DNA from: Malus domestica
Lineage: Eukaryota > Streptophyta > Magnoliopsida > Rosales > Rosaceae
Assembly: GCF_042453785.1 (NCBI RefSeq)
Contig: NC_091668.1
Span: forward strand, 9,010,001-9,074,000
DNA length: 64,000 nt
Reading direction: 5' to 3'
Positions 18,430 through 41,057 of this stretch are shown here, piece by piece. A model generated the notes under the pieces. It had not been told where the DNA came from. It saw only the letters and a program-made list of their open reading frames with translations, and did not search any database. Position numbers and translations under genes: made by a program. Each line of letters starts with the position of its first letter. The first letter of the stretch is position 1.

Positions 18430-20016
18430 TGTTTATCGTGGTAGTTGTTTGTGGCGGAAATTTCCGTGGGGGATGCTTCCTGTCCGACGAGCACACAGCT
18501 TCCCGAGAGGTTGGCGCCGGTTGATACTTTTATGTCGGGCTCCTGCTTTACTGGCGGGCTTGTCGGGCAAGGCTGAAAGAGAAAGACAGAGTTAACTTTG
18601 AAATGTGCCTTTGTGAGGCCTTAGGTGTAGGCCTTGAGGCTCACAATCAAGATTAACTTTTAAGTGTTCAGGCGTGCCACTGCCATCTTCAGTATGGCAG
18701 ATGTAGAACGGATGTTTGAGTTTAATTATATATTCGAAAGACTACGTTAGTTATTGACAGGTGTCTTTGTGGGGCCTTAGGTATAGGCCTTAAGGCTTCC
18801 CATAAATAACTAACTTAGTACTCGAACATATAAGGTTCCTTTTCTTAGTTATGTAGGTCTTATAACCGTCATACTTCTGATTACCTGGACTCAAAGAGCA
18901 GAATGGATCCAAATAGGTGCCTTTGTGGGGCCTTGAATAGGCCTTAAGGCTTCCCATCAGAACCCCTTCCATTCTCAATGTTCTTGCCAGAGAAACAGGA
19001 TGAATCCAAATACGTGCCTTTGTTAGGCCTTAGGTGTAGGCCTTGAGGCTTCCAATCAGAATTCATCCCGTCCCCGAACGTTATATGGTAATCATAATAT
19101 AACAGCAATAAAACTAAGTGACAGGTTGATTACTTGCACACCAAGTAACTTCGGACTTCTTGTTATCAAAGCTTGTAGTGGATGGGTTAAGTCCACATCA
19201 TGTTCTTTTTTATGCCTTGAGGCCAAGGACTTTTAAGGTGATCAAATCTTATATACCCGAAGGCTTAGAACTTAGATCTGGTTTGAACTGTGAGGACATA
19301 TTCAAATCGGATCTAAGCACTGAGAGAATCTTTTAATAGCCATATTACTAGAAATAACTTGGATATAACTTGTAGTATACAACATATTGCTAGGCTAATG
19401 AATGAAAAGACAAAAACAAAGAGGATCGAGCAAGGTTTAACCTTGTCGGGCAAGGCTGATCGTCTTGCAAGAGGTTTGAAAGCTTAGAAAAAGGGTTGGG
19501 AGGTGAGTTTACAAAAGAAATCGATACTACAGCAAGAGTTGAACAGGGTAGCAGAGCTATTACAAGAGGTTTATCCCGAAAGGGATGAAGGCTTGGGCTG
19601 ACTACAGCTTCGTTTTGAAGGCAAATCTGGCTTTTGAGCAGAGTTTGTGCTTGTATTTGTTTGTTTGAGTGTCCTTGATTCTAACCTCTCTTTCTCCTTT
19701 TATAGACACCTTGGTTTGGCCTCCTGTAGCAGCAACCTTGCCCGAATGCAGCTTGAAGGGTAGTGACTCATCAGCTATTTTACTTGTACTGCCATTTAAA
19801 AGTACTTTTTGGGCTGTATAGCTGGCTGGTCTATACCACTTGGCCTTTGGGTAGGTGAGCAAATGGTCTGCATGGCCTGCACCTAATCAGAAACGGGCTT
19901 CTCCTATCTTCTGGACTTCGGCTGGGTTTTTACTGGGCCTCCGAGTACCTTTCCCCTTTAGGCTGCTCTTTGGGCTAACTTCCCCCGAGCCCAAAGTTTA
20001 AGTTTTGATCCAAACA
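18430..20016 (-). mobile_element. Large LTR (1.59 kb) of a truncated retrotransposon
   Basis: Read on the minus strand the block starts TGTTTGGATC (20016) and ends ATAAACA (18430), i.e. TG...CA. A TATA box, TATAAAA, sits at 19698-19704, as expected for an LTR promoter. Just past the end is CGTTTGGGCACA, which resembles the start of an internal primer-site region in some plant LTR elements. The flanks show no matching 5-bp duplication, so this is likely one LTR of an element that has lost the rest. No gag or pol remains. It carries the hairpin array described separately. Confidence 0.5.
18590..19317 (-). repeat. Array of hairpin modules with a shared core and locus-specific stems
   Basis: Four modules at about 18590-18660, 18728-18832, 18893-18982 and 18996-19070 share a core of about 40 bp (minus sense: AAGCCT.AAGGCCTA.ACCTAAGGCC.CACAAAGGCAC). 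In each the core is flanked by inverted arms that differ between modules yet pair within each module, the longest (module 2) over about 30 positions. Inside the core, GCCT pairs with AGGC and the self-complementary AGGCCT occurs twice around a short loop. A fifth hairpin with another loop lies at 19271-19317 (arms CTTAGATCTGGTTTGAA and TTCAAATCGGATCTAAG). All lie downstream of the TATA box at 19698, so they would be in the leader of an LTR transcript. Confidence 0.75.
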
Positions 20017-20212
20017 GTAGTACTTTTTCTATCATTTTTCTTCCTATTGTACGTTTGTGGTTTTATGAAGTATTTATATTGTTCGAGAGTATCTTATGCT
20101 TTGAGGTTTATATTCGTTAGATTTTGCTTATTATAACTTTAATAAGACTTTGAATTACATTATTTCTAGTCCATTAGGCGAACTCCAACCCTAGGCTATA
20201 ACCATGCTATAA

Positions 20213-20994
20213 GGCCATCTCCAACCGATGGCTGGCCAAAAGGCTCGTTTTAGCCCTTTGGCCCTCCAAGATTCTCCAATATATTAATATTTTAATGAAC
20301 AGTACATGGCCATATTTTCCTCCGTCTCCAACCGAGGGCCAAAGGGTCATAGGGCCAAACATAATTTATTATTTAAAAACTACAACTTAAATTCAAATCC
20401 AACGGCTAGAAGTTATAGGAAAAAAAATGGAATTTAAAAAAAATATGAAACAAATTTTGTGAAATAGAAGTTATAGGAAAAAAATGGAATTTAAAAAAAA
20501 ATGAATCAAATTTTGTGAAATAGAAGTTATAGGAAAAAATGGAATTTAAAAAAAATATGAAACAAATTTTGTAAAATAGAAGTTATACGAAAAAAAATAT
20601 GAACCAAACTTTGTAAAATATAAGTTATAGAAAAAAAGTTATAGGAAGTTATAGAAGAAAAAAAGGTTTAAATTCATAAAAACAAAAAACAAAAAAAAAA
20701 TTGAATACAACAGTTAGTGACTGGCTAGCCGTTGGAATTCAAATTCAAATTAGTGTCGGTTTTAACCGACACTGTTCAAACTGATATTATATTAACATTG
20801 CTATTAGTGTCGGTTATAACCGACACTAATAATATAGTGTATATTATTTCTGCATGCAGCCAGCCCTCCAGCCCTCTCCGATTCCCTGGGGCCCTCCCAG
20901 ATTCCTGAGCCCTCTGGCCTAACCCTCGGTCGGATACGGTTTTTGGGCTAATTTCGACCCTCCGACCCTCTGGACCCTTCAGTTGGAGATGGCC
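20213..20994. mobile_element. Nested Harbinger-like MITE (TAA duplication)
   Basis: Starts GGCCATCTCCAACC and ends GTTGGAGATGGCC, with TAA on both sides (20210-20212 and 20995-20997). It is inserted near the left end of the element at 20177-22037. The interior has four to five tandem copies of a roughly 58-bp unit (20410-20640, GAAATAGAAGTTATAGGAAA) and a palindromic pair around TAGTGTCGGTT/AACCGACACTA (20751-20830). No coding capacity. Confidence 0.8.
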
Positions 20995-27795: not shown

Positions 27796-27978
27796 GATAT
27801 TATTAGTTTAAATTAGTTGTCTTGCGAGCCAAGGATTAATCACTTGCTCATTAAGTTTTAAATTACTTTCTTGTTTTAGTCTAGGGTTTGCTTTAGGTTT
27901 TCACTATTTAAAGGACTCTTTGTATTTGGTTTTATTTATCAATCAATAAAACAATGCTTTACCGTATACTGTTTAACA
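27796..27978 (+). repeat. 5' LTR of TR-GAG element (left end eroded)
   Basis: Aligns with 29541-29723 with a few substitutions and small gaps; ends ...GTTTAACA. The terminal TG is missing, replaced by a GAAAGAAAGAAAAAG run. Confidence 0.85.
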
Positions 27979-29528: not shown

Positions 29529-29723
29529 TGTTGGAATTTAGATTATTAGTTTTTAAATTAGTTGTCTTGCGGGCCAAGGATTAATCACTTGCTCATTAAG
29601 TTTTAAATTACTTTATTGTTTTAGTCTAGGGTTTGCTTTAGGTTTTCACTATTTAAAGGACTCTTTGTATTTGGTTTTATTTATCAATCAATAAAACAAT
29701 GCTTTACCGTATACTATTTAACA
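29529..29723 (+). repeat. 3' LTR of TR-GAG element
   Basis: 195 bp, begins TGTTGGAATTTAG and ends ATTTAACA. Preceded by the purine-rich tract at 29521-29528. Confidence 0.85.
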
Positions 29724-31790: not shown

Positions 31791-33254
31791 TTAGTAAGAA
31801 TAAGCATTAAATTGGTCCAGTAAGACAAGACTTTCGACAAAAGCATGCATGGATTCGTATTTTCCCTCTCCTTCTCCAGAATATTTAACTTGTTTGGTCT
31901 TAAAATCCACCGTTACCAGTCTTATACTATTCTTACTACTCATGCGGAAGACTTTTTCTCCATTGCCTTTAGAACCAACATAAGCAACATGGAAGATTAA
32001 AGAGAGTGATTCAGGGCCCTTGGACAGCACCACGCGGGATGATTTAGTCCACGATTCCACCACACCATATTGTTGCATCACCCATAAACTGAGGCAGCAA
32101 GTATTTTCTCCTAATCTCGAGTAATGCCAAGGAAACTGAACCAAGGCGAGGGAATTCTCGTGTGCCGAAAGAACAAAATGAGAGGCACCACGGAGCAACC
32201 TTTTTCTCGTCAATGATTTCGGCAACTCAATCTCGCTGAACGATTCAGTGGCCATATCAAACGACGCAATGACATCATTGTTGCAGTCTCGGTCGTGGCG
32301 TAGGATCCAATGCACGGCACCACGGACGAAAACAGTCTTATGATATAAACGTTGAAGAGAAACAGCAGGAGAAGCTGGTGGAGGAGGACTGAGAGTCTTC
32401 CAGGAGCCCCTGGCTAAGGAGTAAACCTTGACTTCGATTGGGGTGTCCCTGGCAGGACCACTAGAACGATCACGATCATTCCTAAAAATTGTTAGAACCT
32501 TATAGTCATTGGTGCTCGAATCGTAGCCAAACGCATAAGTAGGTCTAACCCGTTTATACGTGTAAGGAGGGGGCAAAGTCACAAACTTTCTAACCGAAGG
32601 GTTCCAAATTATTATGGGGAATTTGGGGATGTCATTAGCAAAGCATATGAGGCCGTTGGAAGTCCCAACCAGACCGTAACTTGAAGGAGTCACTTTGCTT
32701 CTTCCTCCTTTGTAAGCCGGTTGGTAAGTCACGGGAGTTATTTTCTTGGTATTGGTAGCATTAATGCTGAAGGAAGAAGCAGAAGCAGAAGCAGGCTTAT
32801 CCCAATACAACAAATAATCATTAAAGGACCATAATAGATGGAGACGACCAATATCATTGTCGTCGGTATTTGGACTTTGGCTGCGGCGGAGATGGGCGGC
32901 AATGAAGGATGAGCTTTGGATCATATATCTCCATGACTTGCTTACGGCGCAGCATTTAACTAAAGATTTGACGGACGACCTCAACAGGATTTCACGCACG
33001 ATTTCTTCGGGTAAGTCGCAGCAGTACTGAAATTCCCCTTGGAGTTTGATGCAGGTGGTTTTTACATCAGGTGGATATTGAAAGGCGGCGTAGGTGGTGG
33101 TGGTCTTAGGGTTCTCCCCTAGGACAGAGAACCGGCGACGAGGATCACTTGGAGCCTCCTCCACCGAAGAAGATGACGACAACTTCCTCTCCTTCAAGGG
33201 AGGACGTGGTGGTGAATTGATGTTGGTGGCGCTTCCAAGAGAAGAGGTGGACAT
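31791..33254 (-). CDS. F-box protein with F-box-associated (FBA) domain
   Basis: Single exon, 487 residues. The F-box is at about 79-125 (DLPEEIVREILLRSSVKSLVKCCAVSKSWRYMI), preceded by a Ser/Pro-rich N-terminus. The FBA type 1/3 region follows with the hallmark SYGLVGTSNGLICF, IIWNPSVRKFVTLP and FGYDSSTNDYKVL. Such proteins are substrate receptors of SCF ubiquitin ligases; the substrate cannot be told from sequence (the CPR1/At3g06240-like group is the nearest I recall). The ATG at 33254 is preferred: a TATA box (TATATAAA, minus, 33319-33326) lies about 65 bp upstream, and the longer frame upstream has no ATG. A broken relative of the C-terminus lies at 29770-29893. Confidence 0.88.
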   Translation of the reverse strand: MSTSSLGSATNINSPPRPPLKERKLSSSSSVEEAPSDPRRRFSVLGENPKTTTTYAAFQYPPDVKTTCIKLQGEFQYCCDLPEEIVREILLRSSVKSLVKCCAVSKSWRYMIQSSSFIAAHLRRSQSPNTDDNDIGRLHLLWSFNDYLLYWDKPASASASSFSINATNTKKITPVTYQPAYKGGRSKVTPSSYGLVGTSNGLICFANDIPKFPIIIWNPSVRKFVTLPPPYTYKRVRPTYAFGYDSSTNDYKVLTIFRNDRDRSSGPARDTPIEVKVYSLARGSWKTLSPPPPASPAVSLQRLYHKTVFVRGAVHWILRHDRDCNNDVIASFDMATESFSEIELPKSLTRKRLLRGASHFVLSAHENSLALVQFPWHYSRLGENTCCLSLWVMQQYGVVESWTKSSRVVLSKGPESLSLIFHVAYVGSKGNGEKVFRMSSKNSIRLVTVDFKTKQVKYSGEGEGKYESMHAFVESLVLLDQFNAYSY

Positions 33255-33318
33255 GTTTGGTTTGCTGGAACTGAGAGTTGTCGAATGGTATACCAGCAAA
33301 AGTTCCTTCCCCTTGGTG

Positions 33319-33326
33319 TTTATATA
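33319..33326 (-). promoter_or_regulatory. TATA box of the F-box gene
   Basis: TATATAAA on the minus strand, about 65 bp before the ATG at 33254; it decides the start because transcription would begin downstream of any earlier codon in this frame. Confidence 0.6.
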
Positions 33327-34110
33327 TATGTGTGTGTACGTCGACAAGGAGTATTCGACTAGGAATCCAAAACCACAACGATATATTTCTAATCCAAACT
33401 GTAGGACATATCGGACTTCTAAGACTTATCTCCAATTCAATCTAAGCCGGGAAATCCTAAAATTTAGTCTCCTATTTTCAACTATTCATCTACATGTATT
33501 AGGTTTCAGTTTTTTCCTCCAATGACGAGACCTATAATTCACACCTCCTACTTTATAATTTGTTGAATTTTTATTCTATCAATTTTAGAATTAATGTTTG
33601 TATAATCTTGTTTTATTCTTACGAACATTGTGATGTAAAAAAATAAATAAATTAGAGTTGGATCACTGGATTGTATATCACAATATCTATGATTTGCAGA
33701 CAAATAAAATTGACATTACCTAAAATTCCTAACATTACATGAATAACAAAGAGATTACACAAGAATACTCCAAGCATGTTGTTCCAATAAAAATACTAAA
33801 AACAAGAAAGAAGGCAATTGGAATTTCTAACACTCTCTTTGTCTACCAGATTAGCTAAATTTAAAAGGAAAATGGAATGGTCGAAGAAATTGATAGTGAA
33901 ATATAGTGGTAGAGAAAAATACCAAAAAAAAAATCGACACTGACCAAAAAACCGAAATGAAGGAATACCCAATCGAAAATACTGAATTATTCAGTACTCG
34001 AAACCGACACTTTCGGTACGAGAATCAGTACGAAATGTGGGTTCATTTGATAAGACTGACTCAAACCGAATTAAATATAAATAAAATTTTAATTTAAAAT
34101 GCATAATATA

Positions 34111-36227: not shown

Positions 36228-36425
36228 TGTAGAAACTTATGATTCTGTGAGAGAAAGGGTAAAGGTAGAGAGAGAGAGAGGATTCTAGAAAGAGAAGTGT
36301 ATTGATTGAATGAATTCATCTTACAGTCCGAAAGAATACAATATCATATAAATAGGTACAATTAGCTTAACAGCTAAGTAAAGGAAAACCTTTAATTACA
36401 TATAGGTTCTATTATATTCCTAACA
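36228..36425 (-). repeat. 3' LTR of the Copia element
   Basis: 198 bp. Differs from the other LTR at two sites (plus-strand ACAGTCC versus ACTGTCC, and AAAGGAAAA versus AAAGTAAAA). Contains a GA-rich run and the last codons of the polyprotein frame. Confidence 0.95.
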
Positions 36426-39400
36426 CACCCCCTCAAGGTGAAGGGAGGAGGTCGAACTGAAAGCTTGGAAGCCAATTCGGCAAATCTATCAGAGGGCAAA
36501 GATTTAGTGAAAATATCTGCAATTTGAAGAAGAGAAGCAACATGATGCACACTGACTTTGCCACAGAGAACCTTCTCACGAATATAGTGATAGTCTATTT
36601 CAACATGCTTCGTCCTAGCATGAAATACAGGATTGAAGGCCAGTGCAATTGCACTTTTATTATCACAGAAAATCGCAGGAGTTTTGAGAAGAGGAAAGGA
36701 AAGATCCTGCAATACTTGACAAACCCAACTGAGTTCAGCAGCTGTATGAGCTAGAGACCTGTACTCAGCTTCAGTAGATGATCGAGCAACAATGCATTGC
36801 TTCTTTGCACTCCAGGAAATGAGATTCGGTCCAAGAAAAACACAGTAGCCACTGGTGGATCTTCTGTCAACAGGACAGCCAGCCCAGTCAGCATCAGACC
36901 ACGCAGTGAGGTATTGAGGACCTTTTGTTAGCCAAAGACCGAAATGAAGGGTACCCTTCAAATATCGAAGGATCCGTTTAACTGCCTGTAAGTGGACTGT
37001 CCTAGGAGAATGCATATGTTGACAGACTTGGTTAACAGCAAAAGCCAAATCAGGCCGAGTCCATGTGAGATACTGCAAGGCTCCAACAGTGGAGCGATAA
37101 AAGGAAGGATCAGAAAGAGGAGAACCAGAGTGATCCAGTTTCGCAGAACCAACAGGAGTGGAGCAAGGCTTGACACCAAGCATATCAGATTTCTTCAGCA
37201 AATCAAGAGCATATTTGGACTGATGCAGAAATAAACCTTTGGCAGATCGGTGAACCTCAATACCGAGAAAGTAGTGAATATCACCCAAGTCTTTCACAGG
37301 AAACATAGCTTGTAACTGAGTAATAATGGATTGACAAACCGTGGTAGAACTACCAGTGATGATGATATCATCAACATAGACTAAGATGAAAGTAATGGTA
37401 GAATCCTTTTTGATAAACAGACTGGAGTCAGAATGTGAAGAGGAGAAACCTAAAGAGAGGATAGCCTTGTGAAAAGCATCATACCAGGCACGAGTTGCCT
37501 GTTTTAAACCATAGAGTGACCGTTGGAGTTTGCAGACATGTGTAGGTTTGGACTGATCAACAAAACCAGGAGGCTGAACCATGTAGACATCCTCCTTTAA
37601 TGTACCATGCAAAAAGGCATTACTGACATCAAGCTGATGGACAAACCAGTCATAGGAAACAGCAATGGATAAGAGAATGCGGATAGTAGTAGGCTTTGCA
37701 ACGGGACTGAATGTCTCAGAGAAGTCAAGACCCTCTTGTTGATGGAAACCTTTGGCGACAAGACGAGCCTTATACCGTTCAATAGAGCCATCAGGTTTAT
37801 GTTTGAGTCGAAAGACCCATTTGCAACCAACCAAGTTCAAATGAGACTGAAACGGAACCAATTCCCAAGTGCCTGTGGATTTCAATGCTTGAAACTCATC
37901 CTTCATAGCTTGCATCCAGTTGGGATTTTTGGAAGCTTGTAAAAAGGTTGTAGGTGTGGAAGGAAGACAAGCAATAGAATCAACAGAGGCTGGAAGGGAA
38001 TGTTTGGTTGCTGTGAAGACCTTTGGTTTATGAATTCCAGCCTTAGCTCTCGTAATCATAGGCTGCGAATTAGATAGAGCAGGGGCAGGTACAGTAACAG
38101 ATGGTAAACAGGGAGTAGACTGAGGAGAAGTAGCAGCTGTGGAGGCATTACTGTCAGGTACAGAAGATGCTTGATGTGGATTACTGTCAGGTACAGAAGA
38201 TGCTTGATGTGGTGATAAACCAGCAGGACTAGCAAGCTGTGAAGTACTCAGTGAAGTCCTTGGTGAAGAGGAGACAGTAATAGTGACAGTAATAGGAGAA
38301 GAGCTGAGAGGTGAAGGACGCTGGGGTAAAGGAGAGGCAGAGAACAAGCCTTGCTTAAACGGGAACAGGTGTTCATCAAAAGTAACATGCCGTGAGATAT
38401 ACACTTTGTTAGCCACAGGATCAAAACAACGATAGCCACAATGATTGAGACTATAGCCGAGGAAAACACACAACTTGCTCTTCGGATCAAGTTTAGTTGA
38501 CGAATAGGGCTGCAGCCATGGGTAGCACGCACAGCCAAAGGCTTTGAGAGTGTGATACTGAGGTACAACATTGAAAAGTTTTTCCCAAGGGCTAGTAGGA
38601 GATGCTTGAGGAGGCAGTCTATTTATAATGTAGACAGCAGTCTGAAAAGCCTCAACCCAGAATTTTGGTGCCATTCCACTCTGAAAGAGAAGAGTCCGAC
38701 CCATTTCAACAACATGCCTGTGCTTCCTCTCTGCGCAGCCGTTTTGTTCAGGTGTATGCGGACAACTTAACTGATGTGTAATACCCTGTTCATTGAGAAA
38801 AGACTGAAAATTCTTGCTTAAGAACTCACCCCCTGAATCTGACCTGAGACATTGAATCTTGCAAGAAAAGAAATTTGTAACTTTGAGAACAAAAGTCTTG
38901 AAAGTGGAGTAAACATCAGACTTATAAACCATAGGATAAAACCAGCTGTATTTAGTGTAGTCATCTACCAAAATGAGGTAATACTTGAAACCAGTACATG
39001 AAAGAGTGGGAGAAGGACCCCAAACATCTGTATGCAGTAAGTGAAAATGCCTAGTGGAAGTACAAGGCAAAGTAGAAAATGGTAATCTAGATGCCTTCCC
39101 CATCTTACAATCAGTACAAATGGACCCTGAATTGACAGAACCAATAACAGGTAGCTAATGTTTATGGACAACATTATGTAAAACTAAGCTCGATGGGTGG
39201 CCGAGTCTTTTATGCCAGAGATGAACATCTGCCTTAGCTATCATCAATGCCGTAGGCGAGAGAGCAATGCCTGAGGTTTTATTGGATGCAGTCCAGTAGA
39301 AAGGATATAAGCCACCTTCACAGAGGCCCTGGAAAAGCATCTTCCCAGTTCTTAGGTCCTTGATATAGAACCCAAAAGGATCAAAAGTCAGAGAAGCCCA

Positions 39401-40714
39401 ATTGTCATAGACAAATTTGTAAACGGATAACAGATTATGGGATGCTTTGGGAACCAACAACACATCATTGAGCTTAAATGTAGCATTGGAAGTACGAATT
39501 AAGGCAGATCCAGTATGAGAAATGTACAGACCTTTACCATTACCAACAAACAGCTGATCACTGCCATTGTAGGGAATTGCAGAATTAAGAGAGGATGGAT
39601 CAGGTGTCACATGATGAGAGGCTCCACTATCAGTCAACCAATAGCTCGGTGGAGGAGAAGTCGCAGCCGTCATGCCAACAGGAGGTCCATGAGGTGATCT
39701 TTGAGATGCAAACTGAAGGAGCTTCTCACAGTTGAGAGCTTCATGACCAAATTTAAGACATAATTGGCACTGAAGAGAGCGGCCAGAAAAGGAATTGGTG
39801 AAATTCTGACCAGAGAATGTGGATCTGGAATTAGGACCAGGACCAAGAAGACCTCCAGAAGTGTTGTTGTAATGACGATTTCCTCCAAAATTGCGATTCG
39901 AATTGTAGCGATTTTTGTTCTGAAATCGACCACGGCCTCTGAAATTGTTGGAACCAGGTTGAGCCGTATAAGCATGAAAAGGTGCTGAAGAAGAAGACGG
40001 TTCTCTGGATTTGCGTTTCAGAAGAGAAATCTCTTTACTCAGGAGTAATCCATGCAGCTCATCAGGATTGACAAAGTCAGATCGTGTTTCAATATAATCA
40101 ATAAATGATTCATACTCAGTAGAGAGACCAGAAAGAATGTAGGCCACAAGATCTGAGTCAGAAATTGGTTCGCCAGCCGCGGCAAGTTTATCAGAGATTT
40201 CCTTAAGAGAGTTGAGGTAATCAGTCATTGAAGAGTCTCCTTTTTGGATAGTCTGAATCTTCGAACGAAGGCTGTGAATGTGAGTATGAGATGCACCAGA
40301 AAACCGACGTTCGAGAGATTGCCAGAGAGATCTGGAATCGTCCATGCCAACCGTCAATGGAAGGAGATCTTCAGATAATGTTGAATTAATCCAAATCATC
40401 AGGATTTGATCACGATCACACCAATTCTCAAATGCAGGATTAGAAACTTGAGATCCGGACGAATCAGTCACAAATGGAGGAGGACACACATCAGTTCCAT
40501 TGACAAGCCCTAAAAGCTTGAATCGTTTCAGAACAGGAAGAAAGAGACTACGCCAAGTGATGTAGTTATGGCGAGTGAGCTTCGTTGCAACCATGCCAGT
40601 GATATTTTGAACAGTGATCGAAGAAAGAGACGGATTGGACGCATTGGGCGCGACATTAGAACCAGAAGAACCAGCCGGAGAAGAAAGATCCGCAGAATTC
40701 ACACCAGTCGCCAT
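36392..40714 (-). pseudogene. Copia gag-pol polyprotein with one in-frame TAG
   Basis: One frame of 1,441 codons from ATG 40714 to the stop at 36392, interrupted once by TAG at 39155-39157. In order: UBN2-type gag, CCHC knuckle CQLCLKFGHEALNC, protease DSGASHH, pre-integrase LWHKRLGHPSS, the interruption, integrase core (DSGGEF, then PEQNGCAERKHR), reverse transcriptase with YVDDIIITG, and RNase H (DADWAGCPVDRRSTSGYC, DNKSAIALA). The stop falls in the zinc-binding part of integrase. All other recognisable motifs are intact. Between integrase and RT a short unit (SSVPDSNPHQA) is repeated. No product with pol activity is expected unless the stop is read through. Confidence 0.93.
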
Positions 40715-40859
40715 CAGAGAAGCAAGATTGGAGAAGAAATTGTTAGAAATTGAAGAAGGTCAGGCAGATTAGATCTGTTTGGGAGAAGAGAAAAGGGTGA
40801 GAAAATTCAAGAAGACGGAAGCGGTGGATCGAGGTCGTTAGACATCGGCGAAGATACCA

Positions 40860-41057
40860 TGTAGAAACTTATGATTCTGTGAGAGAAAGGGTAAAGGTAG
40901 AGAGAGAGAGAGGATTCTAGAAAGAGAAGTGTATTGATTGAATGAATTCATCTTACTGTCCGAAAGAATACAATATCATATAAATAGGTACAATTAGCTT
41001 AACAGCTAAGTAAAGTAAAACCTTTAATTACATATAGGTTCTATTATATTCCTAACA
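40860..41057 (-). repeat. 5' LTR of the Copia element
   Basis: 198 bp; on the minus strand begins TGTTAGGAATATAATAG and ends GTTTCTACA. Followed on that strand by the primer site at 40853-40859. Confidence 0.95.

Follow-up and report, generated by a model that had tools for sequence, protein, structure and literature searches.

The window analysed here, a 64-kb stretch of the Malus domestica genome, carries a solo long terminal repeat (LTR) of 1571 bp on its minus strand (18446-20016). The LTR has TG...CA ends, similarity to other copies stops at these bounds, the 5-bp target-site duplication GTAGT flanks it on both sides (18441-18445 and 20017-20021), and paired LTR copies occur elsewhere in the genome. 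A sequence-only reading of the window had proposed a 1.6-kb LTR at this place; the LTR is real, with its bounds now corrected and its solo status added. An AT-rich tandem repeat with a unit of ~56 bp lies near it (20407-20664). Elsewhere in the window are a minus-strand Ty1/copia element (36228-41057), with 198-bp end repeats that are 99% alike and two long frames bearing gag, integrase, and RT domains, and a 544-aa minus-strand frame (31794-33425) with F-box and F-box-associated domains. A 182-bp direct repeat (27799-27978 and 29542-29723; 97% alike, 1.7 kb apart) is perhaps a small terminal-repeat element.

Copies were sought across 19 contigs (651 Mb). The hairpin region described below returned 1,884 candidates, the 40 scored being 91-95% alike with the window itself set aside. 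The LTR returned 2,167 candidates, and the main LTR rows among the 40 scored were 86-94% alike, again apart from the window. Several pairs of region matches among the 40 scored were spaced 7.9-10.6 kb apart. Three LTR pairs spanned 9,758, 9,764, and 9,442 bp from LTR to LTR, enclosing internal regions of 6.3-6.6 kb. In one copy, TTTTTGGCACGCCCGATGGGATC follows the LTR end (L059:1-60) and is probably the primer-binding site. Domain searches of two internal pieces from two copies gave the pol order RT, RNase H, integrase (RVT_1 in L059; RT_RNaseH, RVT_3, and integrase in L060) and reported no gag family. The placement of RT and RNase H before integrase identifies the element as Ty3/gypsy.

A second RNase H domain together with the lack of a chromodomain is the hallmark of the Tat-type lineages of Ty3/gypsy (Tat, Ogre, Retand). 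Here the second RNase H, RVT_3, scored 54.9 bits against a cut-off of 21.6, and the 474-aa integrase frame of one copy gave no chromodomain match. Because RT, RNase H, RVT_3, and integrase occur without a chromodomain, the domain content points to a place among the Tat-type lineages. Across the genome, RVT_3 domains are common. A survey confined to recently active elements gives Retand LTRs of 315-1194 bp and internal regions of 7.4-12.9 kb (PMC11963269), ranges that include neither the LTR nor the internal region found here.

Within the LTR lie four hairpin modules on the minus strand, which is the element strand: M1 (18590-18658; core 18605-18641), M2 (18726-18833; core 18761-18797), M3 (18892-18980; core 18917-18951, with a shorter loop), and M4 (18991-19075; core 19014-19050). 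M1, M2, and M3 were delimited by fold and class alignment (A3, A1, and A2, respectively), and M4 by its fold, an arm matrix, the fold energies of its copies, and a single-reference test. The common core of about 40 bp that had been proposed for all four was confirmed as a core of 35-37 nt in each. A 40-nt core probe at ≤3 mismatches recovered three of these cores, with none in shuffles; the core it missed was that of M3, whose loop is shorter. Other details required amendment. Two AGGCCT copies surround the loop in M1 and M4, while in this copy M2 and M3 have GGGCCT on one side, and the enclosing GCCT/AGGC pair is broken in M2, where it reads GTCT. The outer stem of M2, at 27 predicted pairs, exceeds the length that had been listed. 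The array had been drawn as 18590-19317; its last part, a fifth hairpin (19269-19317), has no core, and its better fold is that of the plus strand.

The arms were said to differ between modules while pairing within each, and this holds for 20-nt arms: in a 4x4 element-strand matrix, the own partner was best in every row and column. At 25 and 30 nt it remained best in every row and in three of four columns, the M1 3' arm pairing better with the 5' arms of other modules. At 35 nt, the own partner of M1 was no longer best, even in its row. Among 1349 same-geometry sites in the LTR, the pairing of 30-nt arms was equalled at 5 (M2), 19 (M3), and 0 (M4) sites; the M1 arms were ordinary by this measure (475 of 1349). 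Fold z-scores of the window copy for M1-M4 were -4.2, -6.8, -3.0, and -4.5 on the minus strand and -3.9, -5.5, -2.3, and -1.8 on the plus strand. When 90-nt segments were slid along the LTR (50 tested, either strand), five fell below z -3: one each at M1, M2, and M4, two at the fifth hairpin, and none at M3.

To place these hairpins within the family, 50 copies found through similarity to the hairpin region or the whole LTR were aligned, with 7 duplicates and the window's own loci removed and no partial sequences included. The modules were present in 50 of 50 copies. Foldback or MITE insertions, expected in some copies only and with target duplications of their own, were rejected on this basis, and so was the suggestion that the modules are independent foldback insertions absent from other LTRs. 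Mean fold z-scores (element/other strand) were -3.5/-3.2 for M1, -6.7/-5.2 for M2, -2.3/-1.3 for M3, and -4.2/-1.9 for M4. The coreless fifth hairpin gave -2.5/-3.1, compared with -0.8/-0.9 for a spacer and values between -0.7 and +0.5 for three other stretches. Fold energy favoured the element strand in 43 (M2), 39 (M3), and 49 (M4) of the 50 copies, and M1 folded about equally on both strands.

Substitutions in these close copies carried little structural signal. The family divides 19/30 at many sites. Most changes fall on terminal branches and are probably younger than the insertions. No covarying pair fell below E 0.1 (GT-APC with a tree-based null; best E 0.13), and with helices defined without G-U, changes from Watson-Crick pairs showed no strand bias (G-U 107 vs A-C 96). 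An RNAalifold-derived count of 182 vs 50 was rejected as proof of strand, as the 107 vs 96 obtained from helices without G-U identifies it as bias.

More divergent copies were reached through the core itself. A core pattern at ≤3 mismatches gave 4,292 genome matches (0 for the reversed pattern), and a second core pattern gave 985. Among the latter were two stretches: L111, with two cores, is 79% like the window LTR over 367 bp, and L112, with one core, is 65% like it over 890 bp. Ten arrays on contigs C1 and C2 have at least three to five modules each. Overall, divergent copies carry 1-5 modules, and some of their LTRs are only 65-79% alike over aligned parts. Since it was core patterns that selected these copies, out of the first 100 matches listed, core conservation among them is biased. 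Removal of modules ≥95% alike kept 37 of 93 (M1), 34 of 77 (M2), 14 of 34 (M3), and 14 of 36 (M4). The M2 set formed alignment A1 and the M3 set A2; A3 combined M1 with a second family (55 of 57 candidates), keeping the shortened L082 and leaving out L128 (core call misplaced) and the second L069 call (not a module). Shuffle, slid-partner, and tree-null tests on the class alignments covered M1, M2, and M3, and M4 was covered by the single-reference test only.

In these copies, stem letters change together. Stems of the M3 class, for example, read AAGAATGAACTC/GGGTTCATTCT, AAGAACAAATTC/GGGTTTGTTCT, and AAGGATGAACTC/GTGTTCGTCCT. In this class (n=14), 93.9% of 462 cells pair, compared with 88.9% when shuffled; double changes occur in 11 of 33 pairs (5.7 shuffled) and 31 cells are double-changed (11.5 shuffled), with 0 of 500 shuffles as high for any of the three measures. 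Slid partners pair in at most 60% of cells. In the M2 class (n=34), 96.8% of 881 cells pair, 9 of 26 pairs contain double changes, and double-changed cells number 23 against 7.1 shuffled (0/500). For M1 with the second family (n=55), 91.2% of 1,318 cells pair versus 89.6% shuffled (0/500), and double-changed cells number 32 versus 11.4 (0/500). Pairs with double changes (4 of 24 vs 2.2 shuffled) were matched by 52 of 500 shuffles, pair types were not above shuffles (477/500), and a partner slid by +1 came near the observed count (29 vs 32 double-changed cells). Independent columns simulated on each tree equalled the paired cells in 2 (M2), 0 (M3), and 9 (M1) of 500 runs; for double-changed cells, the runs that did so numbered 4, 0, and 2 of 500, respectively.

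The single-reference test, in which the structure is derived from one reference sequence and compared with 500 nulls, was applied to both strands. Nulls equalled the paired cells in 57, 0, 1, and 49 of 500 cases (M1-M4) on the element strand; the opposite strand gave 132, 37, 61, and 290. Double-changed cells of the element strand were equalled by 14, 98, 8, and 261 nulls; M2 thus showed no clear excess (98/500) and M4 none (14 cells vs 14.9 in the null). Inferred G-U events in divergent copies exceeded A-C events (58 vs 33, p 0.011; helices partly from the same alignments). Summed single-reference counts were 71 G-U vs 44 A-C for the element strand, compared with 56 vs 63 for the opposite strand. 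A further count from reference helices without G-U in divergent copies (181 vs 56 cells) was discarded, as its cells are not independent, no M2 arm pairs were obtained, and the M3 fold was wrong. Because of these flaws, the single-reference and tree-null tests are preferred.

Single-pair covariation is weak, and the signal lies in sums over helices. At a two-set E<0.05, 2 of 105 single pairs stood out (M1 1/15, M2 0/32, M3 1/32, M4 0/26). The covariation check proposed by the sequence-only reading is of this single-pair kind, and in close copies it yielded nothing below the E-value given above. In divergent copies, helix sums of M1, M2, and M3 exceeded their nulls. The claim of selection on RNA structure is supported by those helix sums, in shuffles and tree nulls and, for the paired cells of M2 and M3, in the single-reference test. 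Taken over helices, these comparisons are good evidence for a selected structure in the element-strand RNA, the case being apparently best for M2 and M3, fair for M1, and weak for M4.

The cores vary less than the arms around them. Mean minor-allele frequency was 0.030 in the M1 core versus 0.094 and 0.047 in its arms, 0.030 versus 0.066 and 0.068 in M2, and 0.020 versus 0.029 and 0.041 in M4. The comparison covers these three modules, full-length M3 cores being too few. Its sample consists of copies found by whole-region or LTR similarity, with modules called through a loose core match and some places present under two locus ids. One L111 module that no pattern had chosen keeps 33 of 35 core letters, and a core is retained in both L111 and L112 despite the divergence of their LTRs. 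Modules also recombine: in module 2 of L061, the 5' arm is of M3 type and the 3' arm of M4 type, which indicates that exchange occurs within cores. Modules 2 and 3 of L065 fold poorly. Rfam covariance models (ribozyme, microRNA, and others) gave no match at gathering score in the window, and four related loci gave 4 hits at E 2.1-4.3, far under gathering scores. Viral and prokaryote collections held no exact match to the core pattern, as expected for a plant element. From the comparisons of copies, we conclude that the modules are a putative selected, repeated RNA element.

The position of the array suggests where this RNA element would act. A TATA box, CTATAAAAG, lies at LTR position 312 (19697-19705, minus strand) in a context shared across copies, and the modules lie downstream of it, as had been claimed. 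The exact context was found in 25 loci, which reduce to 21 distinct places, one of them the window; this count takes exact matches only, and many other loci lack this part of the LTR. Transcription would start ~30 bp past the TATA box, and the element-strand RNA would run through the array. With such a start, the array would occupy about +355 to +1080 of the predicted leader (~0.36-1.1 kb), and the LTR would end near +1225. Downstream of the TATA box, the LTR contains 13 ATGs, so unaided scanning to gag would probably be hard.

Two further features border the array. Directly after M1, CTGTCTTTCTCTTTCAG (18573-18589, minus strand) resembles a plant 3' splice site; this site, at LTR position 1444, has the top 3' splice-site-like score in the LTR by a home-made measure. 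The resemblance is kept in L111 (TTCTCTTACAG) and L112 (TCTTCTTGCAG), with another letter before CAG. A leader intron was nevertheless rejected: no donor was convincing, the best one precedes the expected start site, and the donor CAG|GTAATC at LTR position 1133 is absent from some divergent arrays. An exact 18-bp repeat lies on both sides of the array (18559-18576 and 19442-19459). It is probably not an insertion scar, as the unit GCCTTGCCCGACA(A/G) around its 3' copy differs in number between copies.

We propose that the modules would act in cis, as a repeated RNA element within the long genomic-RNA leader (R-U5) of a Ty3/gypsy element that encodes two RNase H domains. Each module would consist of a freely varying stem displaying a nearly fixed core. 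In the predicted core, a GCCU/AGGC helix is followed by an asymmetric internal loop and a GGCC/GGCC helix, which is usually capped by an ACACCUA loop. Selection would hold the core letters and the pairing of the stem while leaving the stem letters free. The nearly fixed core letters, covarying stems, repetition, and leader position suggest a protein-binding site. Gag, or a protein working with Gag, would bind the core, and serial sites would provide avidity, such that full-length RNA is chosen for packaging. A leader site present in several copies and in several related LTR families would fit a packaging signal. We give this reading somewhat less than an even chance. The self-complementary AGGCCU may also aid the pairing of two genomes. 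Dimerisation of this kind is possible, given that a short palindrome close to the 5' end mediates it in Ty3 (PMC11381356); the AGGCCU palindromes here sit inside predicted helices.

The main rival to recognition by Gag is that a host protein would bind the array as an element that helps the long leader RNA in export, stability, or translation, for which the constitutive transport element of simple retroviruses offers a parallel. Fixed internal-loop letters within free stems, in several copies, agree with such an element, and the many leader ATGs, which would make scanning to gag hard, give it a possible role; this structural evidence fits packaging equally, and we consider the host-bound element unlikely. 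Pairing might instead be inherited as a by-product of exchange and duplication, with cores recombining and arms carried along. Module number does differ between copies, and the mixed arms of L061 module 2 are a product of the expected kind. However, exchange within cores would mix arms and weaken pairing, while the arms stay matched and co-change beyond tree-based nulls, which makes this origin improbable.

Selection might also act on the LTR as DNA, through cruciforms or a series of transcription-factor sites. The core letters are kept, M1 folds about equally on both strands, and GTGGGGCC in M2 and M3 resembles what we take to be a TCP site. Yet factor sites leave paired arms of changing sequence unexplained, and cruciforms explain neither the better element-strand folds of M2-M4 nor the excess of G-U over A-C in divergent copies (58 vs 33); we regard selection on DNA as quite improbable. 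Small-RNA precursors or silencing decoys would account for long imperfect stems, above all that of M2 with its 27 outer pairs. The most constant part, however, is the core around the loop and not one arm, and no Rfam microRNA match rose above gathering score, so that a small-RNA origin seems very improbable. On balance, our preferred reading is packaging through recognition by Gag, its principal competitor being host factors for export or translation.

A broader reading, which we hold to be on the doubtful side, is that the modules would represent a new modular RNA family. Its nearly fixed 35-nt predicted protein-binding core, set in freely evolving stems, would be a common tag of several diverged LTR families, with one Gag or host factor serving many. 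Copy number would grow by exchange within cores, and compensatory change would then re-register mismatched arms. Thousands of core copies with covarying stems form a natural variant set, which includes recombined modules like L061 module 2. Should Gag bind the core, the array could reveal how packaging is shared among diverged or defective families; should a host protein bind it, the array would lead to a host pathway on which very abundant plant DNA draws.

To our knowledge, little is known about the signals by which plant LTR retrotransposons have their RNA packaged and exported. We found no description of this hairpin array in the literature searched, where subscription journals were thinly covered. 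In one survey of LTR structure, the LTRs of plant Metaviridae varied too much in length to be modelled (PMC3601003). HODOR (KX869746), a high-copy apple repeat of 9,716 bp (PMC13334179; 9.2 kb in PMC6901071), is reported to be centromere-enriched; two of the LTR-to-LTR distances given above (9,758 and 9,764 bp) come near its length, a likeness of size alone. Retrozymes likewise place structured RNA, in the form of hammerhead ribozymes, in plant LTRs (PMC4918200), while the present array has no ribozyme or other Rfam match at gathering score. BARE, a plant LTR element that must likewise divide its RNA between packaging and translation, draws on a distinct RNA pool for packaging, and little is known of packaged RNA beyond it (PMC3735527). 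It belongs to Ty1/copia, and the accessible portion of that account describes no such hairpin array (PMC3735527).

Repeated palindrome-bearing motifs are also found in the LTRs of Sireviruses (Ty1/copia); these short motifs sit upstream of the TATA box and are read as DNA regulatory motifs (PMC2829016). The modules described here differ in lying downstream of the TATA box of a Ty3/gypsy element and in having covarying arms, which the Sirevirus motifs, as portrayed in the available text, lack. Closer in position are the leader signals of retroviruses, whose packaging signal, psi, lies in the 5' leader. In Ty3, dimerisation depends on PAL6, the short 5' palindrome mentioned above (PMC11381356). 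Like these signals, the array, known here from sequence alone, would place structured RNA with palindromes near the 5' end of the genomic RNA. In contrast to them, it has several near-identical cores on covarying stems, lies inside the LTR, and has its palindromes paired within predicted helices.
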